From the NCBI GenBank assembly GCA_016200325.1, contig JACQEZ010000020.1:186001-250000 (forward strand): DNA of 64,000 nt, read 5' to 3'. The notes beneath the pieces are model-generated. The model ran no database searches and was not told where the DNA came from. It was given only the letters and a program-made list of their open reading frames with translations. Below, piece after piece: positions 33,910 through 58,372 of this stretch. The position numbers and the translations under genes are program-made. Origin of the DNA: Candidatus Manganitrophaceae bacterium. GTDB lineage: Bacteria > Nitrospirota > Nitrospiria > SBBL01 > Manganitrophaceae. Position 1 is the stretch's first letter; each line of letters begins with the position of its first letter.

Positions 33910-34016
33910 GGCTGAAGGTCGTGGGGTTTCACCCCACCCTCCACCGAGGGGGCGCCTCGTCGCGCCCCCTCCGGCTTCCCCAGACGCCGGGGGTGGAACC
34001 CCCTGGCCCCCCTGCG
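33910..34016 (+). repeat. Left arm of a long imperfect inverted repeat
   Basis: About 107 bases beginning CTGAAGGTCGTGGGG. Compared by eye with the reverse complement of 34369-34477 it is about 80 percent identical, with small indels. The composition is unusually rich in G and C homopolymer runs. Confidence 0.7.
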
Positions 34017-34368
34017 GCCGAACTCGGCGCGACCGCACAAGGATAGTGCGGACTGCGCCTCAGACAGGCGCCCTGAAAAGGTAGGTGGAACGTTTTCATT
34101 ATAGCGGTGGCGCACTGCGTCCTCGCTCCACCCATCCCCCCGTGGGGCCCTTTCTCTCCGACACAGCGTGCCACCGAGCAGATAACCCCAAATCTAGTAC
34201 TGTTTTTGTTTGAATTAAAAAAGATCGTAAGCGACTGCGCGGCAAGGGCGTACTCCGCCCCCCCACGCTGCTGCGTTTTATATCCGACGGTTTACCTACC
34301 GAATCAGGTCACCTGTCGAAGCCCCATCCGCGGTGCCCTTCCCGCGCGTGGTGCAAGTTGTGACCGTA
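34017..34368. other. Non-coding core between the two inverted-repeat arms
   Basis: Roughly 350 bases with no ORF that resembles a protein. AGGCGCCCTGA occurs at about 34066 and again at about 33871 outside the left arm. I see no transposase, tRNA or structured RNA that I can name. Confidence 0.4.
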
Positions 34369-34477
34369 AGGGGGGAGCGGGGGGGATCTCTCCCCCCGGC
34401 TGCACGGGGAGGCCGGAGGGGGCCGGGCAATCGGCCCCCACGGTGGGGGGTGGGGTAAAACCCCACGACCTTCAGGC
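34369..34477 (-). repeat. Right arm of a long imperfect inverted repeat
   Basis: Ends GGGGTAAAACCCCACGACC followed by TTCAGG, the reverse complement of the left arm at 33910. The arms enclose about 350 bases of non-coding sequence. The pair may be a non-autonomous mobile element or a large hairpin between the P450 gene and trmJ. Confidence 0.7.
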
Positions 34478-48128: not shown

Positions 48129-50921
<2,793 letters not shown>

Positions 50922-50938
50922 ATTTAGTAATTTTTAAC

Positions 50939-50978
50939 AAAAAGCCTGAGGCGGAGTGATTCTGCCTCAGGCTTTTTT
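50939..50978 (+). terminator. Rho-independent terminator of icd
   Basis: The stem GCCTGAGGC/GCCTCAGGC with an 11-base loop, extended by A/T pairing, is followed by TTTTTTGTTTT. It has a near copy at 58229-58268. Confidence 0.9.
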
Positions 50979-51323
50979 GTTTTCAGCCCGGGTAGATTGC
51001 GCGGCCGGTGTCCAATGTTATCGTGTGCGCTTTAAAGCACATGTAGGTGACTGACTTCATCGTCCAAGAGACTCTAAATGGACCCAGGCCCAAACGCCAG
51101 CCTTTTACCCTTGACAGATTTTTTCATGGATGCTCCCGATCACGCGCGGGAATAATCTCACATTAGAATGCCGGGTGGTCCTGAAATTGACTTCCGGTAG
51201 AGTTATAGGGTAGATTCTCATACTGAATAATAATTAAAAATAAGCCTTTCATTCTAGTCTGAGCAATGAAGTGTTCATGGACAATTGCTTCAAACGAAGA
51301 TCAACCGACAAGAGAGGTGCGGC
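50979..51323. other. Left edge of the island, no gene seen
   Basis: About 345 bases from the icd terminator to the first island gene. No ORF is credible. The composition drops towards AT near 51200-51290. I could not identify an insertion-sequence end or attachment site. Confidence 0.35.
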
Positions 51324-52634
51324 ATGAAAACATTATCGCTTTTTATTTTCTTCGTATTTGCAGGTACGGCGTGGGGGCAAGTTCGAGTGAACTCGATGAT
51401 TGACGGGGGTCAGCGTGAACCTTCCATTGCGGTCACTCCAACCGGAAATATCTTTATCGGTTATATCAATACGGTTGATGGGACGGTGCACCTTAACAGA
51501 TCGACAAACGGAGGAACAACTTGGGTTGAGCTGACACCCGGAATCCCCGGTGCAGACCCGACTCTCGCGGCCGATTCGAGTGGAAGGCTTTATTTTGCTT
51601 TCTTGAACGATACCGTTAAGATTGTCCGCACCGACAACCAAGGGCTATCGTTCCCTTTAGTAAATCAGGCTTTAACGCCTAGTGGAAGTGATCGGCCCTG
51701 GATTAAAATAGGTCCTGCCGATGCGGTGTATCTGACCTATGCGGGATATTCTTTCCCACCGGATACATGCTCAGTGTCCGCATATAAGTCGGATATCTAC
51801 TTTAAAAAAAGTCTCGATCTAGGTGCGACTTGGCATCCGACACCACAGGAACCACAAACGATATTAACCGCTCCGATCGCATCGAATAATTATCGATGTT
51901 CCTCGGGACCGATCGCGGTCGGCCCGAATGGTGAGATTTATGTGCTACTGAATTGTTTTGTTTTCGACCTATCGAATAATTGCGCGGCGCTTACGATACA
52001 GGAACATCATGTTTATTTAACCCGAAGTGATGATGGGGGAAACACATTTCCATTAGCGAATTTTCGGGAACTGCCCAATGTAAACCCAATAGAAAACCAA
52101 GCGGGATATGCTGCATTCTCAACAGCGAATAAACGAATGAACATGGCGAGTATTGCTGTCCTCCCTCCCAACCCGCCCAGCCCCGGTTCTCCCGGTGTGG
52201 TTGGCATCGTATGGCCCTGTGATTCCGGAGAAGATTTTGATATCTGTTTCCAAGCTTCGGCGGATAAGGGCGTGAGCTTCCCCTTCTTAAATAAAGTAAA
52301 TAGCGACGCGGTAAAAGCCTACCGCTTCTTTCCTGCAATCGTTGCCGATATGACAGGTTTCCATGTGATCTGGATGGACAGTCGGGAAACAGGGCTGGAT
52401 ACATCCAATCCAAAGTGGGCTGCCTATCGTGCGGATGGTTTGTCTACTTGGACGAATCAAACGATGGTCAGTAGTGTCGCTGCCCCGGGTAATGACATTA
52501 ATTCAGACGAGGGCGGGGTGCCGGACCCTCAAGGATTCGGAGACTTCTTTGAGATTACTTCGCGCAATAACAATGTCTACTCGACCTGGAGTGATACTTC
52601 TTTGGGAACAGCCGACATCTATTTTGGAAGGTAA
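51324..52634 (+). CDS. Secreted BNR/sialidase-like beta-propeller protein
   Basis: 436 residues with a signal peptide (LFIFFVFAGTAWG). The mature protein repeats a pattern of Ser/Thr-Asn-Gly-Gly-x-Thr-Trp (NRSTNGGTTW, SLDLGATW, SDDGGNTF), the Asp-box signature of sialidase-like propellers. I see no clear catalytic Arg triad, so enzymatic activity is unproven. GAGAGGTG precedes ATG 51324. Its last 150 coding bases are duplicated at 55199-55380. GC content is lower than in core genes. Confidence 0.7.
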   Translation: MKTLSLFIFFVFAGTAWGQVRVNSMIDGGQREPSIAVTPTGNIFIGYINTVDGTVHLNRSTNGGTTWVELTPGIPGADPTLAADSSGRLYFAFLNDTVKIVRTDNQGLSFPLVNQALTPSGSDRPWIKIGPADAVYLTYAGYSFPPDTCSVSAYKSDIYFKKSLDLGATWHPTPQEPQTILTAPIASNNYRCSSGPIAVGPNGEIYVLLNCFVFDLSNNCAALTIQEHHVYLTRSDDGGNTFPLANFRELPNVNPIENQAGYAAFSTANKRMNMASIAVLPPNPPSPGSPGVVGIVWPCDSGEDFDICFQASADKGVSFPFLNKVNSDAVKAYRFFPAIVADMTGFHVIWMDSRETGLDTSNPKWAAYRADGLSTWTNQTMVSSVAAPGNDINSDEGGVPDPQGFGDFFEITSRNNNVYSTWSDTSLGTADIYFGR

Positions 52635-52666
52635 GTTCCAGATCCAAATTCTGCAGACAATCGATA
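52485..52666 (+). repeat. 182-bp direct repeat, copy 1 (3' end of the sialidase-like gene)
   Basis: From CCGGGTAATGACATTAATTC through GACAATCGATA. Copy 2 is at 55199-55380. I find a single base difference by eye (AACAATGTC versus AATAATGTC), so the duplication is recent. Confidence 0.9.
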
Positions 52667-52675
52667 TATAAAGAA

Positions 52676-52745
52676 AAGGGGCCAGGTTTAGAAATTTGAC
52701 TTTAGCAGGAAATCATCTTTAAATATCCATTTTCTAGACCTGGCC
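52676..52745. repeat. REP-like palindrome with GGGGCCAGGT ends
   Basis: AAGGGGCCAGGTTTAGAAA and TTTTCTAGACCTGGCCCC pair as an imperfect 17-base stem around about 35 bases. It resembles the palindromic units mobilised by Y1 (RAYT) transposases. A diverged relative lies at 55134-55196. Confidence 0.65.
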
Positions 52746-52793
52746 CCGATCAACTCTCATGGGCCCCGATCAACTCCTCAACAAGAAAACACC

Positions 52794-53564
52794 ATGCGAC
52801 GACGCGACGACGATAAATCATCACACTGGGCAGCCAAGCTCCAAGGCGCTGATTTCCAATGGGTGCATGAAACTATCGCTCTTATGTTCCAGATGACCGA
52901 AGAGGAGGCGAAGCAGCAAGGTGGATATTACGCCTATAAGACAGAGTTTCTTGAGGTGCTGCGCCCATTCATGGCGAATCCATGTCTCGAAACCGCCATC
53001 GCCCTCTTAAATGCGGAAGAATCTTTGTTGTCAGTTTTTGAGCAGTCCAAGCATCCATTCGTTCGCTCGATGACAATGCCCACCGAACCCACACATGCTG
53101 AAATCGAGAATGCACAGCAGATGCCAGTTATTGAATGCGGCGTATCTAGCATTAAGCTCGGAATTTTTACACGGCTGTCCCGCAAGTTCGTGCGAACACA
53201 CGACCCCGAGCGAGCCATATCGCTTGCATTTTGCGTGACGAGTTCCATTCTTTGCGAGCCGATTCAGCAGGCGACGTTTCATGCTTTCGCCGACAGTAAT
53301 TCGGACTTGATCGAGCGTGAGATTCGCGACGTTTTTGCCGACAAGCAGCTATCCGAGCCGATTCTATTGGCCTACGCCGCGCGTATAATTTTACTTGGTT
53401 GGGAGACACGCAATCCGCTCAATCCTATTGCTACCCAACTTACAGAGAGAGCGACTGATAACAATATGGAGATTCCCAACATTGTTCGCCTGTGGGGAGC
53501 ACAAGCCATTGTCACATTCTTTCAGCGTGCCCAACAATTTATGGTAGATACACTAAGCGCCTAA
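52794..53564 (+). CDS. Integron cassette gene, hypothetical protein of 256 residues
   Basis: A soluble, mainly helical protein with no membrane segment and no family that I recognise. Its TAA stop lies inside the first half-site of an attC (GCCTAAC), the usual position for a cassette ORF. That makes it a mobile cassette gene. No convincing ribosome-binding site is seen; the start is the first ATG after a palindromic repeat. Confidence 0.7.
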   Translation: MRRRDDDKSSHWAAKLQGADFQWVHETIALMFQMTEEEAKQQGGYYAYKTEFLEVLRPFMANPCLETAIALLNAEESLLSVFEQSKHPFVRSMTMPTEPTHAEIENAQQMPVIECGVSSIKLGIFTRLSRKFVRTHDPERAISLAFCVTSSILCEPIQQATFHAFADSNSDLIEREIRDVFADKQLSEPILLAYAARIILLGWETRNPLNPIATQLTERATDNNMEIPNIVRLWGAQAIVTFFQRAQQFMVDTLSA

Positions 53565-53675
53565 CCATACGATGCAGCTAACAGGCTCCGCGCGTCACGG
53601 TAGCTGCTGCCCACAGATCCGCCGCGCAGCTACCGCGCCGTGCTCCGCCTGTAGCTGATCTTGTTATCGTTAGGC
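53559..53675 (+). other. Integron attC site, 117 bp
   Basis: The outer half-sites are GCCTAAC (53559-53565) and GTTAGGC (53669-53675), a perfect RYYYAAC/GTTRRRY pair. The inner half-sites CAGCTAACAGG and CCTGTAGCTG pair imperfectly, and an inner stem GGTAGCTGC/GCAGCTACC follows. This folding plan is that of attC recombination sites. Confidence 0.9.
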
Positions 53676-53694
53676 GTCATAGGAGCGCGCTGTG

Positions 53695-53797
53695 GAAAAT
53701 CTTAACAGGGGTCAGGTCTTTAATGACCTAAGGAATAATTAAGGAATTCAAAATACAAGACTTGACCCCTTTTGGGCGGTGACCCCTTTTGGGCGCT
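53695..53797. repeat. REP-like palindromic repeat, copy 1
   Basis: GAAAATCTTAACAGGGGTCAG to GACTTGACCCCTTTTGGGCG. Outer GGGGTCAGGTCTT/AAGACTTGACCCC are inverted around an AT-rich core. Copy 2 is at 55391-55510 with small changes. Confidence 0.75.
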
Positions 53798-53846
53798 GGT
53801 CGTAGGCAGCACTCGTTCGGGTGACCGGCAAGAGAGGAAGAGGCCC

Positions 53847-54914
53847 ATGAGACACACTCGCATCATTGTTACTCACTATGGCGGACCCGATGCACTTCAG
53901 GTGGTTGAAGAAGAGTGCCCAGAACCAAAAGATGGAGAAGTGCGTGTTAAAGTGTTGGCCGCCGGTGTCGGCTTGCCTGACATCATGGCGCGTGAAGGCA
54001 TTCATCCCGAAACGCCCCCCGTGCCCTTCACCCCGGGATGGGATCTGGTCGGCATCGTGGATCGGCTCGGCGACGGTGTCGATGGCATCGAACCAGGACA
54101 ACGGGTTATCGCAATGCCGATCCATGGTGCGTACGCAGAATTTGTCTGCTTGCCTAAAGATGAACTGGTTCCAGTGCCATCCGGATTAGATCCCGCCGAA
54201 ACGGTCAGTATGGCGTTGAACTACATCACGGGATACCAGATGCTCCATCGTTCGGCTCACGTCAAATCGGGCCAGCGCGTGTTGATTCATGGCGCGGCAG
54301 GCGGAGTCGGCACGGCACTCTTGCAGCTTGGGCGCCTGGCCGGGCTGGAGATGTACGGAACCTGTTCATCGCGAGGGGCGTCGGCCGTTTCCGACCTGGG
54401 CGCTATCCCGATTGATTACCAGCATGTGGATTTCGTAAAGGAAATTCGCCGTCTCACGACCGATGGTGTAGACGTCGTCTTTGATCCCATCGGTGGCGCT
54501 CATCTCTGGCATTCCCGCAAGGCCCTCCGTCCTGGGGGGAGGGTGGTGGGCTACGGTCTCATTACTTCGATACGTGGTCAGGGATTGACATCAAGTCGTC
54601 CAGGTCGTCGCCAACGCTTTCGTGGAACCGCTATCTTCGCAATGTATATCGCCGGTGGCTGGCTTCTACCGGGCCGGAAACGGGTGCTCCCCTACAGCAT
54701 CCAGACTCTCAAACGGTTAAAACCTGAATGGTTTCGACAGGATTTGACCCTCCTGCTCGACCTCCTTCAACAGAAAAAAATCAAACCGCTCATCGCGCAG
54801 CGATTTCCCCTTGCCGAGGCAAGACAGGCGCACGAATTGCTCGCGAAGGGAGGCATAGTAGGCAAGATCGTGCTCGTGTCCAACGTATCATCACTTGAGT
54901 CAGGAGCGGCGTAA
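53847..54914 (+). CDS. Cassette-borne medium-chain dehydrogenase/quinone oxidoreductase
   Basis: 355 residues from ATG 53847, preceded by GAGGAAGAGG. MDR fold: an N-terminal GroES-like half (GVGLPDIMAREG, PFTPGWDLVGIV) and a Rossmann half with HGAAGGVGTALLQLGRLAG. The catalytic zinc cysteine/histidine set of alcohol dehydrogenases is absent, so it fits the quinone-oxidoreductase branch using NADPH. Its TAA lies in the attC half-site GCGTAAC, so it is a cassette gene. Confidence 0.85.
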   Translation: MRHTRIIVTHYGGPDALQVVEEECPEPKDGEVRVKVLAAGVGLPDIMAREGIHPETPPVPFTPGWDLVGIVDRLGDGVDGIEPGQRVIAMPIHGAYAEFVCLPKDELVPVPSGLDPAETVSMALNYITGYQMLHRSAHVKSGQRVLIHGAAGGVGTALLQLGRLAGLEMYGTCSSRGASAVSDLGAIPIDYQHVDFVKEIRRLTTDGVDVVFDPIGGAHLWHSRKALRPGGRVVGYGLITSIRGQGLTSSRPGRRQRFRGTAIFAMYIAGGWLLPGRKRVLPYSIQTLKRLKPEWFRQDLTLLLDLLQQKKIKPLIAQRFPLAEARQAHELLAKGGIVGKIVLVSNVSSLESGAA

Positions 54915-54968
54915 CAATGGCATGCAGCGGACGGTGCTTCGCGCCGCCGCTGATGCCGGATGTTATAC
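54909..54968 (+). other. Integron attC site, 60 bp (59-base element type)
   Basis: GCGTAAC (54909-54915) and GTTATAC (54962-54968) flank an imperfect hairpin, GGCATGCAGCGGACGG against CCGCCGCTGATGCC, with a single extra base in one arm. The length and bulge are those of classical 59-base elements. The GTTATAC half deviates at one base from GTTRRRY. Confidence 0.88.
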
Positions 54969-54986
54969 CCACAAGGAATTTAGCGC

Positions 54987-55133
54987 GTGAGAGAGATTGT
55001 CGAATCAGCATTAAATGACGCAATTGAACAGCGATTGAGAGCGGATGCTGAAATTCTGATCGCGGATGTTAATGAACGAACAATATCTCACCGCATGGCG
55101 AGTTACTTGGAGCCCCATTTCCTCCGAAAGTAG
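54987..55133 (+). pseudogene. 5' part of a disrupted cassette gene
   Basis: From a GTG at 54987 with AAGGA eight bases upstream, 48 residues are encoded (REIVESALNDAIEQRL ... NERTISHRMASYLEPHF) before a TAG. It begins right after an attC, where a cassette gene is expected. The sequence then runs into a palindromic repeat. The probable 3' part of the same gene resumes at about 55511. Confidence 0.6.
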
Positions 55134-55198
55134 GAAAAGGGGCCTAGCCTAGAAATTTGGCTTTTAGCGAGAAAATAAATCCGTCCCCTTTTCCTCCT
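55134..55198. repeat. REP-like palindrome, diverged copy
   Basis: GAAAAGGGGCCTAGCCTAGAAA to TCCGTCCCCTTTTCC, related to the unit at 52676-52745. It marks the left end of the sequence inserted into the cassette gene. Confidence 0.55.
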
Positions 55199-55380
55199 CC
55201 GGGTAATGACATTAATTCAGACGAGGGCGGGGTGCCGGACCCTCAAGGATTCGGAGACTTCTTTGAGATTACTTCGCGCAATAATAATGTCTACTCGACC
55301 TGGAGTGATACTTCTTTGGGAACAGCCGACATCTATTTTGGAAGGTAAGTTCCAGATCCAAATTCTGCAGACAATCGATA
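55199..55380 (+). repeat. 182-bp direct repeat, copy 2
   Basis: A nearly exact copy of 52485-52666 (end of the sialidase-like gene plus about 30 non-coding bases). It encodes a promoterless 49-residue tail and is not a gene by itself. Confidence 0.9.
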
Positions 55381-55390
55381 AATAAATAAA

Positions 55391-55510
55391 GAAAATCTTA
55401 ACAGAGAAAATCTTAACAGGGTCAGGTCTTTAATCTTGATATAAGGAATAATTAAGGAATTCAAAATACAAGACTTGATCCCTTTTGGGCGCTTGACCCC
55501 TTTTGGGCGC
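55391..55510. repeat. REP-like palindromic repeat, copy 2
   Basis: A near copy of 53695-53797 with the leading GAAAATCTTAACAG duplicated in tandem (55391 and 55405). It ends where the second part of the broken cassette gene begins. Confidence 0.75.
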
Positions 55511-55601
55511 TCTCACGCATCCCCAGTGGCGAGATGTTGTGGACAAGCGTCTTCAGTTTGTTGAGTCCCAAGCACGCGAGATACTGAACAGTGTGGTCTA
55601 A
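55511..55601 (+). pseudogene. 3' part of the disrupted cassette gene
   Basis: An open stretch with no start encodes LTHPQWRDVVDKRLQFVESQ and nine more residues, then TAA inside the attC half-site GTCTAAC. It is the tail of a cassette gene whose head is probably 54987-55133, split by about 377 bases of repeats. Confidence 0.6.
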
Positions 55602-55646
55602 CCCTTCGCTCAACCGGACCCGCCACGGCAGGCGGGCCAGTTAGGT
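55596..55646 (+). other. Shortened attC-like site
   Basis: GTCTAAC (55596-55602), then CTTCGCTCAAC and an inner stem GGACCCGCC/GGCGGGCC, closing with GTTAGGT (55640-55646). The left half matches attC well; the right inner half-site is missing, so it may be a degraded site. Confidence 0.6.
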
Positions 55647-55779
55647 CGAAGGTAAGAGATCGCTGAGAATATGTTCACACACAGGACAACTGAGGAAACA
55701 AGACAATACCATATTAAATAGAAAATAATCCGTCCTCTTTTCTTTATAAGTCAGCGAAGGTCGTACAGCGTTGACTTGC

Positions 55780-55905
55780 CTAACCCGGCATCCAATCGGT
55801 CCGGATGGAGTAATGTTTCAGGCGGATGATCTCCCGGACCTGGTCAAGTAGCTTTTTCGGTTGAGGAGCGGAGGGCTGCACATGGGTCAGAAGAGGGGAT
55901 TTCAT
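55780..55905 (-). pseudogene. intI: N-terminal relic of an integron integrase
   Basis: From ATG 55905 the minus strand encodes 41 residues ending at TAG 55780. The run KKLLDQVREIIRLKHYSIRT aligns with the start of integron tyrosine recombinases (for IntI1: [22 protein letters not shown]). The homology stops right after it, and none of the catalytic R/K/H/R/Y region is present anywhere nearby. Orientation away from the cassettes at 56285 and beyond is that of intI in an integron. The break occurs next to a GTTAGGC core sequence, which may be meaningful. Confidence 0.75.
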
Positions 55906-56284
55906 GTTTTGACCGATCAATCCCTCACGACGGGTTTACACATACTGTATTGATTTTAGAAATTCCATGTGATATACCCCAGGCGACCATAATTTTAGAG
56001 TACAAAATTTTCTGCTTATCTCCGGTTTGGGTCTTGACTACTTTATAATTTCAATATGTTAGGAATGATCGACAAGAGATAGACAGAAAAATTTCCATAA
56101 AATAAGGCAGAAATATTTCTGTCCATTTATATGTCAGGCGGCCAAGACTCCAAGGGAAGGACACGGGCCTCTTCGTCCTCCTGGCCAACCCTAGCTCTCG
56201 TGGTCGTACCTTCGCGCCGGGAGGAGCCGGCCGGGCGGTCCGGACCACGTTGACCCTCCCGGCGAGCAGACGCAAGGAGGAACG
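55906..56284. other. Candidate attI / cassette-promoter region
   Basis: Between the intI relic and the first cassette gene to its right. AT-rich to about 56140, then abruptly GC-rich. TTGACT at about 56034 followed by an AT-rich stretch with TATGTT could be a cassette promoter. I could not identify a consensus GTTRRRY attI core; the nearest is GTTAGGA at 56058. Confidence 0.4.
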
Positions 56285-56710
56285 ATGCCGATCGTCTATC
56301 ACATCGACCGGGAGAGGGGGTACTCCCTCGCCCGCTGGTTCGACGTTACCACGGCGGAGGAGTTCCGAGCGCACATCGGCCGCATGATCTCGGACCCCGA
56401 CTGGCCCCCGCGGAAGCTCACCCACCTCGTCGATCTCCGGTCGGGCTCGCTCGACCGCTCGATCGACGCGGGGGTCCTCAAGGAGGCGGCGAACGCCTAC
56501 GGGGACGCCCCCGAGATGTCGCGGCTGAGGTGCGCCATCGTGGCGGGCGTGGCCTTCTATGAGGCGGTCCAGTTCGAGCGGTACATCTCCCCGCACGGGA
56601 CCACCGTGATCGTGTTCAACATGATGGACACCGCTTGTGCCTGGCTCGGCCTGTCAGCGCCGGAGGTCGAGCGGGCCCTCAGTCGCATGGCGCCCGATGG
56701 CGCGCGGTAG
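56285..56710 (+). CDS. Cassette gene, hypothetical protein of 141 residues
   Basis: Soluble alpha/beta protein (MPIVYHIDRERGYSLARWF), whose pattern of strands and helices resembles a SpoIIAA/STAS-like fold. I cannot assign it. AGGAGGAACG precedes the ATG. GC content is much higher than in the preceding 300 bases, and an attC begins 14 bases after its TAG, so it arrived as a separate cassette. Confidence 0.7.
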   Translation: MPIVYHIDRERGYSLARWFDVTTAEEFRAHIGRMISDPDWPPRKLTHLVDLRSGSLDRSIDAGVLKEAANAYGDAPEMSRLRCAIVAGVAFYEAVQFERYISPHGTTVIVFNMMDTACAWLGLSAPEVERALSRMAPDGAR

Positions 56711-56723
56711 AGGCCGGGAGGCC

Positions 56724-56823
56724 GCCTAACCCTTCGCTCAAGCGGGCACGGCGCGGCGCGATGTTTCCGCTCTGATGCAGCATAAACTGCCCGCGCTCGT
56801 GCCGCTTAGCGCCACCATTAGAC
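56724..56823 (+). other. Integron attC site, 100 bp
   Basis: GCCTAAC (56724-56730) and ATTAGAC (56817-56823) with inner arms AAGCGGGCACG and CGTGCCGCTT, paired apart from one bulged base. This is the attC plan; the right outer core has A in place of the usual G. Confidence 0.82.
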
Positions 56824-56837
56824 GCCAAGGAGACATC

Positions 56838-57314
56838 ATGACGGTCAAGCGTATGGACAACGTCGGCATCGTGGTGGAAGACATGGATGCCGCCATTGCG
56901 TTCTTCACCGAACTGGGTCTCGAGTTCGAGGGGCGCGCCCCAGTCGAAGGAGACTGGGCAGATGGCGTCACTGGATTGCGCGGCATGCGCGTCGAGATTG
57001 CCATGATGCGTACGCCGGACGGTCACAGTCGGCTCGAGATGTCCCGTTTCCTCGCGCCGCCCGTGGTCGCCGATCACCGCAGCGCCCCAGTGAATGCTCT
57101 CGGCTACCTACGCGTCATGTTCACCGTGGAGGACATCGACGATACGCTCGCCCGGCTCGGCAAACGCGGCGCGAAGCTCGTCGGCGAAGTGGTCCAGTAT
57201 GAAGACATGTATCGGCTCTGCTACATCCGGGGTCCCGAAGGAATTCTCATCGGGCTCGCCCAGGAGCTCGGGCAGCAGACTTCCAGAGCGAACCCCATGA
57301 AAAGTAAGCGTTGA
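56838..57314 (+). CDS. Cassette-borne VOC (glyoxalase/bleomycin-resistance) family protein
   Basis: 158 residues from ATG 56838, preceded by AAGGAG. VOC pattern: MDNVGIVVEDMDAAIAFFTE at the start and LGYLRVMFTVEDIDDTLA for the second module, with a Glu metal-ligand candidate near RLEMSRF and IRGPEGILIGLAQELG at the end. Members include glyoxalases, dioxygenases and drug-binding proteins; the substrate is unknown. VOC genes are frequent integron cassettes. Confidence 0.85.
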   Translation: MTVKRMDNVGIVVEDMDAAIAFFTELGLEFEGRAPVEGDWADGVTGLRGMRVEIAMMRTPDGHSRLEMSRFLAPPVVADHRSAPVNALGYLRVMFTVEDIDDTLARLGKRGAKLVGEVVQYEDMYRLCYIRGPEGILIGLAQELGQQTSRANPMKSKR

Positions 57315-57331
57315 GAACGCAAGCATTGGCG

Positions 57332-57352
57332 TCTAACCCGCCGCGCAGCGCT
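57332..57352 (+). other. Truncated attC left half
   Basis: GTCTAACCCGCCGCGCAGCGC is a typical left half of an attC (RYYYAAC plus inner arm). No matching right half follows at normal distance, so the site was cut by a deletion or fusion with the next cassette remnant. Confidence 0.6.
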
Positions 57353-57564
57353 AACGTTAAACCGCTTTTTTCTTTGGGGTCGAAAGGTACACTGGATGCT
57401 TCGATTTCAGTTCGTTGAAGCTTCAGCCGGCTGGGTTGCGGGGAAGCCGTAACCGGTTTGCGCCGGAAGACGCGCACAAGAAGTTCCAGAAAGAGCTGTT
57501 GCATTTTTGGGATGTCCTGGTCGCACGGGGCGTTTCTAACAATTCACCGGAGCCGACCGCATAA
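57353..57564 (+). pseudogene. 3' remnant of a cassette gene
   Basis: A frame without a start codes for about 70 residues ending in AHKKFQKELLHFWDVLVARG, then VSNNSPEPTA and a TAA inside an attC. A tail of this form (NNS-x-x-PT) is seen where cassette ORFs read into an attC. The 5' part is missing. The upstream half of the frame has little protein character, so the true homology may begin near 57430. Confidence 0.55.
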
Positions 57565-57620
57565 AGTCGTCGCATTTTAAAGCCGCATCTTTTCGCGGCG
57601 GCTCAGTTCCGTCGTTAGAT
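57534..57620 (+). other. Integron attC site, 87 bp
   Basis: TTCTAAC (57534-57540) and GTTAGAT (57614-57620). The inner arms GAGCCGACCGC and CGCGGCGGCTC pair imperfectly. The sequence TCTAACAATTC ... CGTTAGATG closely follows the commonest attC consensus. Confidence 0.9.
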
Positions 57621-57713
57621 GGAACCAGGTCTCAGGCCAACTTACTCCCCGTCGAGATCGGCCCGAGACATGCAAACGGAGGACAGCATCGTGCAGCAGC
57701 GCAATCGAATAGT

Positions 57714-58145
57714 ATGACGGACAAACCGATGGCTGCCATCGACGGCCTGAGTTCGCAGCGGTTCTACCATGGTACGAAGGCCGACCTGAAGCCGGGGGAC
57801 CTGATCAAGCCCGGCAATAACTCTAACTACGGTAAGAGGAAGAAGGCGGCCTACGTCTATCTGACCGCCACCTTGGACGCGGCCACTTGGGGGGCCGAAC
57901 TGGCCCTCGGCGAAGGACCCGGCAGAATATACACGGTGGAACCGACCGGCCCGATTGCAGATGACCCCAATCTGACGGATAAGAAATACCCGGGCAATCC
58001 GACGAAGTCATACCGCTCCCGAGATCCGCTTCGGGTCACGGGTGAGGTTACGGATTGGAAGGGGCACTCTCCCGAAGAGCTCAAAGCCATGAAGGATCAC
58101 CTTGAGCACCTTAGGCGACTTGGCGTTGAAGCAGTCGAGGACTGA
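57714..58145 (+). CDS. arr: Rifampin ADP-ribosyltransferase (Arr family)
   Basis: 143 residues. The start FYHGTKADLKPGDLIKPG followed by YGKRKKAAYVYLTATLDAA and PGNPTKSYRSRDPLRVTGEV is the Arr signature. Arr inactivates rifamycins by ADP-ribosylating the ansa chain with NAD+. It is the cassette that follows the 57534-57620 attC. No attC follows it; instead a degraded copy of the icd 3' end begins six bases after its stop. Resistance is a family-based prediction. Confidence 0.93.
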   Translation: MTDKPMAAIDGLSSQRFYHGTKADLKPGDLIKPGNNSNYGKRKKAAYVYLTATLDAATWGAELALGEGPGRIYTVEPTGPIADDPNLTDKKYPGNPTKSYRSRDPLRVTGEVTDWKGHSPEELKAMKDHLEHLRRLGVEAVED

Positions 58146-58150
58146 ATCCG

Positions 58151-58206
58151 GCAAGGTAATGCGTCCGAGCCGACGTTAAACGCGATCGCCGACGCGATTA
58201 AATAAA
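58151..58206 (+). pseudogene. Remnant of the icd 3' end
   Basis: GCAAGGTAATGCGTCCGAG and the following bases match codons for the last 16-17 residues of icd (50866-50921). There is a one-base deletion and several silent-type substitutions. The homology continues through the terminator. It is the right border of the island. Confidence 0.85.
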
Positions 58207-58228
58207 TAGATCTCGGAAGGTTTTCAAG

Positions 58229-58268
58229 AAAAAACCTGAGGCGGAGTGATTCCGCCTCAGGTTTTTTT
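58229..58268 (+). terminator. Second copy of the icd terminator
   Basis: CCTGAGGCGG/CCGCCTCAGG with loop AGTGATT is followed by TTTTTTTGTTT. It differs by a few compensatory changes from the one at 50939, so both stems are preserved. Confidence 0.9.
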
Positions 58269-58372
58269 GTTTGGCCCTGCCCATTTTCCAGGCCTGGTCG
58301 AAGGTGCCTCTGGTGAAGTAATTTCAAGTCATGCTATCATGACAAGGAACAGCCTGTGGAGGCACTGGGGAG

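Follow-up and report, generated by a model that had tools for sequence, protein, structure and literature searches.

A near-identical copy of a gene tail lies between two palindromes in a cassette island downstream of icd in a Manganitrophaceae genome

The window, that is, the whole 64,000-nt stretch of Candidatus Manganitrophaceae bacterium DNA that was analysed (G000:C20:186001-250000), contains a low-GC island downstream of icd, the gene for monomeric isocitrate dehydrogenase. The parts of the island are described on the plus strand. The end of icd and its terminator (50863-50982) form the left border of the island, and a second icd end with a terminator (58148-58272) forms the right border. 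The two ends are 82.5% identical over 126 nt and stand as direct repeats at both borders. Because the icd end and terminator recur at 58148-58272, the intervening DNA (50983-58147) is read as an island of 7.2 kb. Its GC content was 41-50% in 7 of 12 measured segments (50983-58145) and 51-69% in the other five, which are mostly cassette genes; the GC content of the window left of the island is 59%. The layout resembles a genomic island at the 3' end of a gene whose end has been restored, as the second icd end and terminator lie across the insert. It differs from such islands in that no integrase was found inside and the second end is 83% identical to the genome's own icd. The DNA after icd in the four sister genomes in which icd was read through (G002-G005) differs from that of the window, and G002 and G005 are alike for about the first 0.8 kb. 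The sister genome G001 gave no icd match.

Four attC-like sites are distributed through the island. The first (53559-53675) has canonical R'' and R' boxes, the second (54909-54968) has degenerate boxes, the third (56724-56823) has a degenerate R' box, and the fourth (57534-57620) is degenerate. A relaxed attC scan of 450 kb of the contig returned 11 plus-strand matches, and the four in the island were the most stable of them; a strict motif leaves 53559-53675 only. The minus strand gave seven matches, including two island sites picked up from the opposite strand. Four cassette genes accompany these sites. They comprise a gene without a family match (52794-53564), a zinc-type quinone oxidoreductase/alcohol dehydrogenase gene (53772-54914), a gene of the glyoxalase family (56775-57314), and, as the last cassette of the island, a gene for a rifampin ADP-ribosyltransferase (Arr; 57714-58145; 221.8 bits against a cut-off of 130). 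The arr gene is a common cassette gene.

The island is similar to a CALIN or integron cassette array in several respects. Its attC-like hairpins share one orientation and each lies 3' of a gene. It carries the classic arr cassette, and no integron integrase (TIGR02249) match above cut-off was found in any of the six genus genomes. The matches below cut-off in this genome (G000) are on contigs C1, C9, C13, and C19 and none is on C20; the scan of island proteins found no integrase either. Furthermore, the glyoxalase cassette is common to the sister genome G003, where the similarity (95.3%) begins at the attC R' box TTAGACGCC and continues onward, placing the breakpoint at attC. Unlike a CALIN, the island has one canonical attC site only, palindromes interspersed among its cassettes, and a damaged cassette. 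Rfam and tRNA scans of the window returned nothing. A separate repeated element, also without an Rfam match, lies far to the left at 34007-34471, with inverted arms at 33912-33993 and 34393-34475. It is about 92% identical to C20:332569-332976 and also matches the very start of contig C20 (95% over 166 nt).

Near the left end of the island is a gene for a 436-aa protein (51324-52634) that has a 62% paralogue on contig C11. The initial annotation called it sialidase-like. The sole basis for this label is a weak signal for BNR/Asp-box repeats of the sialidase-type propeller, and both matches stay below the curated cut-offs (BNR, 19 bits against 27; BNR_2, 19.9 against 31.4). The protein had no PDB match, its single-sequence AlphaFold model was unusable (pLDDT 31), and its class-level protein matches were weak only. 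No relatives of the gene were found in genome_contigs or viral_contigs. Likewise, its tail DNA had no relative in plasmids, and an exact 30-mer gave 0 hits in viral_contigs.

The tail of this gene is present twice. Copy 1, the source (52485-52666), consists of the last 49 codons of the propeller-like gene and its 3' flank, and copy 2, the derived one (55199-55380), lies about 2.7 kb downstream in direct orientation. An ungapped comparison over 182 nt found a single mismatch, at 52571, where copy 1 has C and copy 2 has T. By position arithmetic, 52571 is a third codon position of the 51324-52634 frame, and as AAC and AAT both encode Asn, the C/T difference is silent in copy 1. Self-BLAST extended the pair to 192 nt at 98.4% identity (52485-52676 with 55199-55390), a match far above chance (E ~1e-90), and its similarity ends abruptly on both sides. 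The duplication is confirmed as real. It is also young relative to its neighbours: divergence is ~0.5-1.6% for the gene tail, ~8% for the palindrome B pair, and ~16-20% for the palindrome A pair described below. Thus, the initial description of a very recent 182-bp duplication, with copies that differ at a single base amid repeats that have diverged, holds in each of these points. Gene conversion between the copies could, on the other hand, make an older duplication look young. The genome-wide search for further copies that the initial annotation proposed, run on the whole 4.21-Mb genome (E<=0.001), returned the two known places and no third copy. Among 44 listed repeat pairs from 450 kb of the contig, the three island pairs are the sole local, apparently non-paralogous repeats of similar size, as picked by eye.

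Could the second copy have been created by the assembly? Contig C20 starts inside a multi-copy repeat, as contigs of fragmented assemblies do, and this lends the idea some weight. However, one base and both flanks distinguish the copies, and the pieces on either side do not resemble each other. The copies are identical over at most 95 consecutive nt (52572-52666). Reads are commonly longer than that, and ambiguity at the scale of a read would not be enough for a simple collapse or a false join. An assembly artefact is very improbable.

Each copy of the gene tail is adjacent to palindromic DNA. Palindrome A (GAAAAGGGGCCAGG...CCTGGCCCC; 52673-52750) begins directly 3' of copy 1. Palindrome B (GGGGTCAGGTCTT...AAGACTTGACCCC; 53695-53797), whose right end is a short tandem repeat, is located further downstream. 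Two related palindromes are at the other copy: palindrome A' (55134-55193), whose left half is like palindrome A, lies directly left of copy 2, and palindrome B' (55391-55512), whose ends are tandemly repeated, lies directly right of it. The B pair is 91.6% identical over 107 nt and the A pair is 80-84% identical over 31-41 nt. Another half palindrome (AGAAAATAATCCGTCCTCTTTTC), like the right end of palindrome A', occurs at 55690-55760. Palindrome B had no match in plasmids.

Copy 2 occupies an exact position between these palindromes. It starts 6 nt past palindrome A' and ends where palindrome B' begins, and if copy 2 is removed the two palindromes are only 6 nt apart. In a post hoc test of 5279 insertion points across the body of the island, 7 gave an equally good fit. 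At their right ends both copies share (A)TAAAGAAAA and then run into different palindromes; microhomology at the left junction is just ~2 nt. On the far side of palindrome A' is the start of a truncated cassette gene (54987-55133), whose 48 codons (54987-55130) resemble the start of longer nuclease-like proteins. From a reading of its motifs, this piece is presumably the start of a PD-(D/E)XK-like family member. It has matches in four of 295 phylum genomes, its own included, and the three relatives in the other genomes have frames of 172-258 aa. On the far side of palindrome B' is a 29-codon open piece that ends in an attC-like R'' box (55512-55601). The order from the 48-codon start to this piece is therefore palindrome A', copy 2, and palindrome B'. 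No tie between the 29-codon piece and the family of the 48-codon start was found, and it had no match in plasmids. In other words, the earlier view that copy 2 sits with palindromes in a disrupted cassette gene stands for the 48-codon start and for the palindromes, but the 29-codon piece is not tied to the same gene.

That the two halves of the supposedly disrupted gene were not shown to belong together fits a different history of the locus. The DNA between the copies (~52667-55198, holding two cassettes and the cassette start) may have been added by homologous or Campbell-type recombination with donor DNA that bore the same gene end. The two tails would then be borders, like the icd ends around the whole island, and the gene would originally have been followed by palindrome B'. 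The copies do flank a block of cassettes as direct repeats, and the icd ends repeat this layout one level up. Against it, such an insertion requires a donor molecule in which this very gene end happened to lie next to palindrome A'. Neither a donor nor an empty site turned up, and the gene lacks a close relative in the collections searched. This history is rather unlikely, if still one to be reckoned with.

A second possibility is that a transposase moved the palindromes along with the adjacent gene end. A passage of Di Nocera et al. 2013 (PMC3733652) gives GGGGWSAS as the TIR consensus of RAYT-like transposases and states that such TIRs are in many cases organised in dimers or clusters. When the island sequences are set against this published motif, GGGGTCAG in palindrome B fits it, palindrome A is one base off, and palindrome A' differs. 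Of 295 phylum genomes, 13 contain palindromes of the GGGTCAGGTCTT type, and a control pattern scored 0 among the matches listed. The genome also contains a single Y1_Tnp (IS200-like) transposase gene (L054, 1195-1869), which has GGGACAGACACTATTTT ends and tandem GTCCCTATTTTCTT pieces. The island elements thus resemble the TIRs of TIRYT/RAYT-type IS200-like transposases, as far as that passage describes them, in the fit of palindrome B to the consensus, in their pairing, and in the presence of Y1_Tnp in the genome. They differ in having no cognate transposase beside them and few copies, and in the one-base deviation of palindrome A.

Did a RAYT/TIRYT (IS200/IS605-like) enzyme then capture the gene end? 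In favour of such capture, TIR-type palindromes bracket copy 2, their motif is one published for enzymes of this kind (in the same passage of PMC3733652), and the tandem end repeats of the resident Y1_Tnp gene, which has GGGACAG-type ends, are of the same style. However, a palindrome is missing to the left of the source. The ends of the resident gene are of the GGGACAGACAC type and are unlike palindromes A and B, which do not flank it. Strict GGGGWSAS palindromes number five in the genome and matches to the control pattern two, which means that the family has not expanded here. A high-copy REP population of the host finds no support in the same counts. Likewise, no resident-like Y1_Tnp was seen around REP-B-type elements of other genomes (L081-L100, flanks of up to ~1.5 kb). 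Given the other ends on the single Y1_Tnp gene and the scarcity of strict palindromes, the data do not show that A and B are substrates of an active transposase, and capture by such an enzyme has a small chance of being correct.

Larger units of duplication are also at odds with the data. The initial annotation had suggested that a composite piece was copied and inserted. This does not agree with the ages of its parts: the flanking palindromes are older than the gene tail (B pair, 92%; A pair, 80-84%), which argues that no composite unit moved as one. Moreover, the source tail has no left palindrome and the genome contains no second composite. A tandem duplication of a 2.7-kb block was rejected as well, since it would have left all repeat pairs equally far apart, and their spacings are 2714, 2461, and ~1711 nt. 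Copy 2 might instead be the remnant of a longer duplication, of the whole gene or of a 2.7-kb block, whose other parts were deleted. Such decay happens, as a cassette copy in genome G172 retains just a start and a palindrome after internal deletion. Near copy 2, however, self-BLAST detected nothing of the gene body upstream of the tail and, apart from palindrome A', nothing of the downstream flank of copy 1, even though the tail itself is nearly unchanged, and two further deletions would be required in a short time. The chance that copy 2 is such a remnant is slim.

The reading preferred here, with a probability of roughly 0.5, is a local, one-off templated copying of the gene end into a place between abutting palindromes. 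Several features fit a templated copy of this kind: the insert is small and directly oriented, it ends abruptly, it sits between hairpins that abut, and at the right junction the palindromes share a GAAAA-type start. The ~192-nt 3' end of the 51324-52634 gene would have served as a template during repair or replication restart ~2.7 kb downstream. The recipient spot would have been the place where the hairpin-forming palindromes A' and B' abutted inside an integron cassette that was already decaying. Synthesis of the new strand would have begun at CCGGG and proceeded rightwards as far as the left end of palindrome A at the source, which is of the GAAAA type. It would have continued at the recipient from the left end of palindrome B', which is similar (AT-rich and GAAAA-type). 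The outcome would be a non-functional gene end between two palindromes, within a CALIN-like cluster without an integrase in the variable region after icd. The template switch and the role given to the palindromes are what one may infer from the junctions and the layout.

Templated insertions by microhomology-mediated template switching are known mainly from eukaryotes, in the excerpts of the literature considered. As described there, they resemble the gene-tail copy in that a short stretch from nearby is copied in direct orientation, the ends are abrupt, and a short sequence is shared at a junction. They differ from it in that the mechanism of the gene-tail copy is inferred only and was never observed in progress. 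The literature covered on RAYT/TIR elements, integron cassettes, and templated insertions reported no gene-end copies between TIR palindromes, an absence that is unproven.

Parallels were sought by self-comparison of 24 loci, and most of them showed no gene fragments beside such palindromes. Two cases came closest. In G002, a second icd end is 90.1% identical over 91 nt to the genome's own icd and has GGGGACAC-type palindrome ends on both sides. This end is closest to the icd end of G003 (95% over 92 nt), and its horizontal arrival with an island is also plausible. In G172, a 66-nt cassette start is duplicated at 100% identity beside GGGTCAGG palindromes, on a contig with putative attC-like sites. 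A copied cassette that later lost an internal part is the better reading of this case. Both cases are leads and loose parallels, and neither is a clean repeat of the same event. A 3.3-kb contig of G172 (L121, G172:C47), whose first ~70 bases recur at its end (circular or tandem), carries putative attC-like sites and a toxin-antitoxin-like pair. It also has two GGGTCAGG palindromes, and a putative ATPase-like cassette gene contains one of these.

What would the gene-tail copy mean beyond this locus? One broader idea is that cassette arrays have local capture points in the form of TIR-type palindromes, at which breaks or nicks by an HUH transposase repeatedly lead to the copying in of nearby gene ends. 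Gene ends (propeller in G000, icd in G002) and cassette starts (G172) would spread in this way without an integron integrase. This idea is a long shot. The duplication has the look of an accident of local copying where the DNA is unstable, and does not seem to be an element of a new kind. For now it is a single, well-preserved local duplication within an unusually patchy and unstable cassette island, and its main value lies in helping to reconstruct how the DNA after icd was put together. If palindromes do guide such copying, cassette arrays that lack an integrase would still have a means of rearranging and truncating genes, and fragments flanked by palindromes could serve as a footprint of this process.
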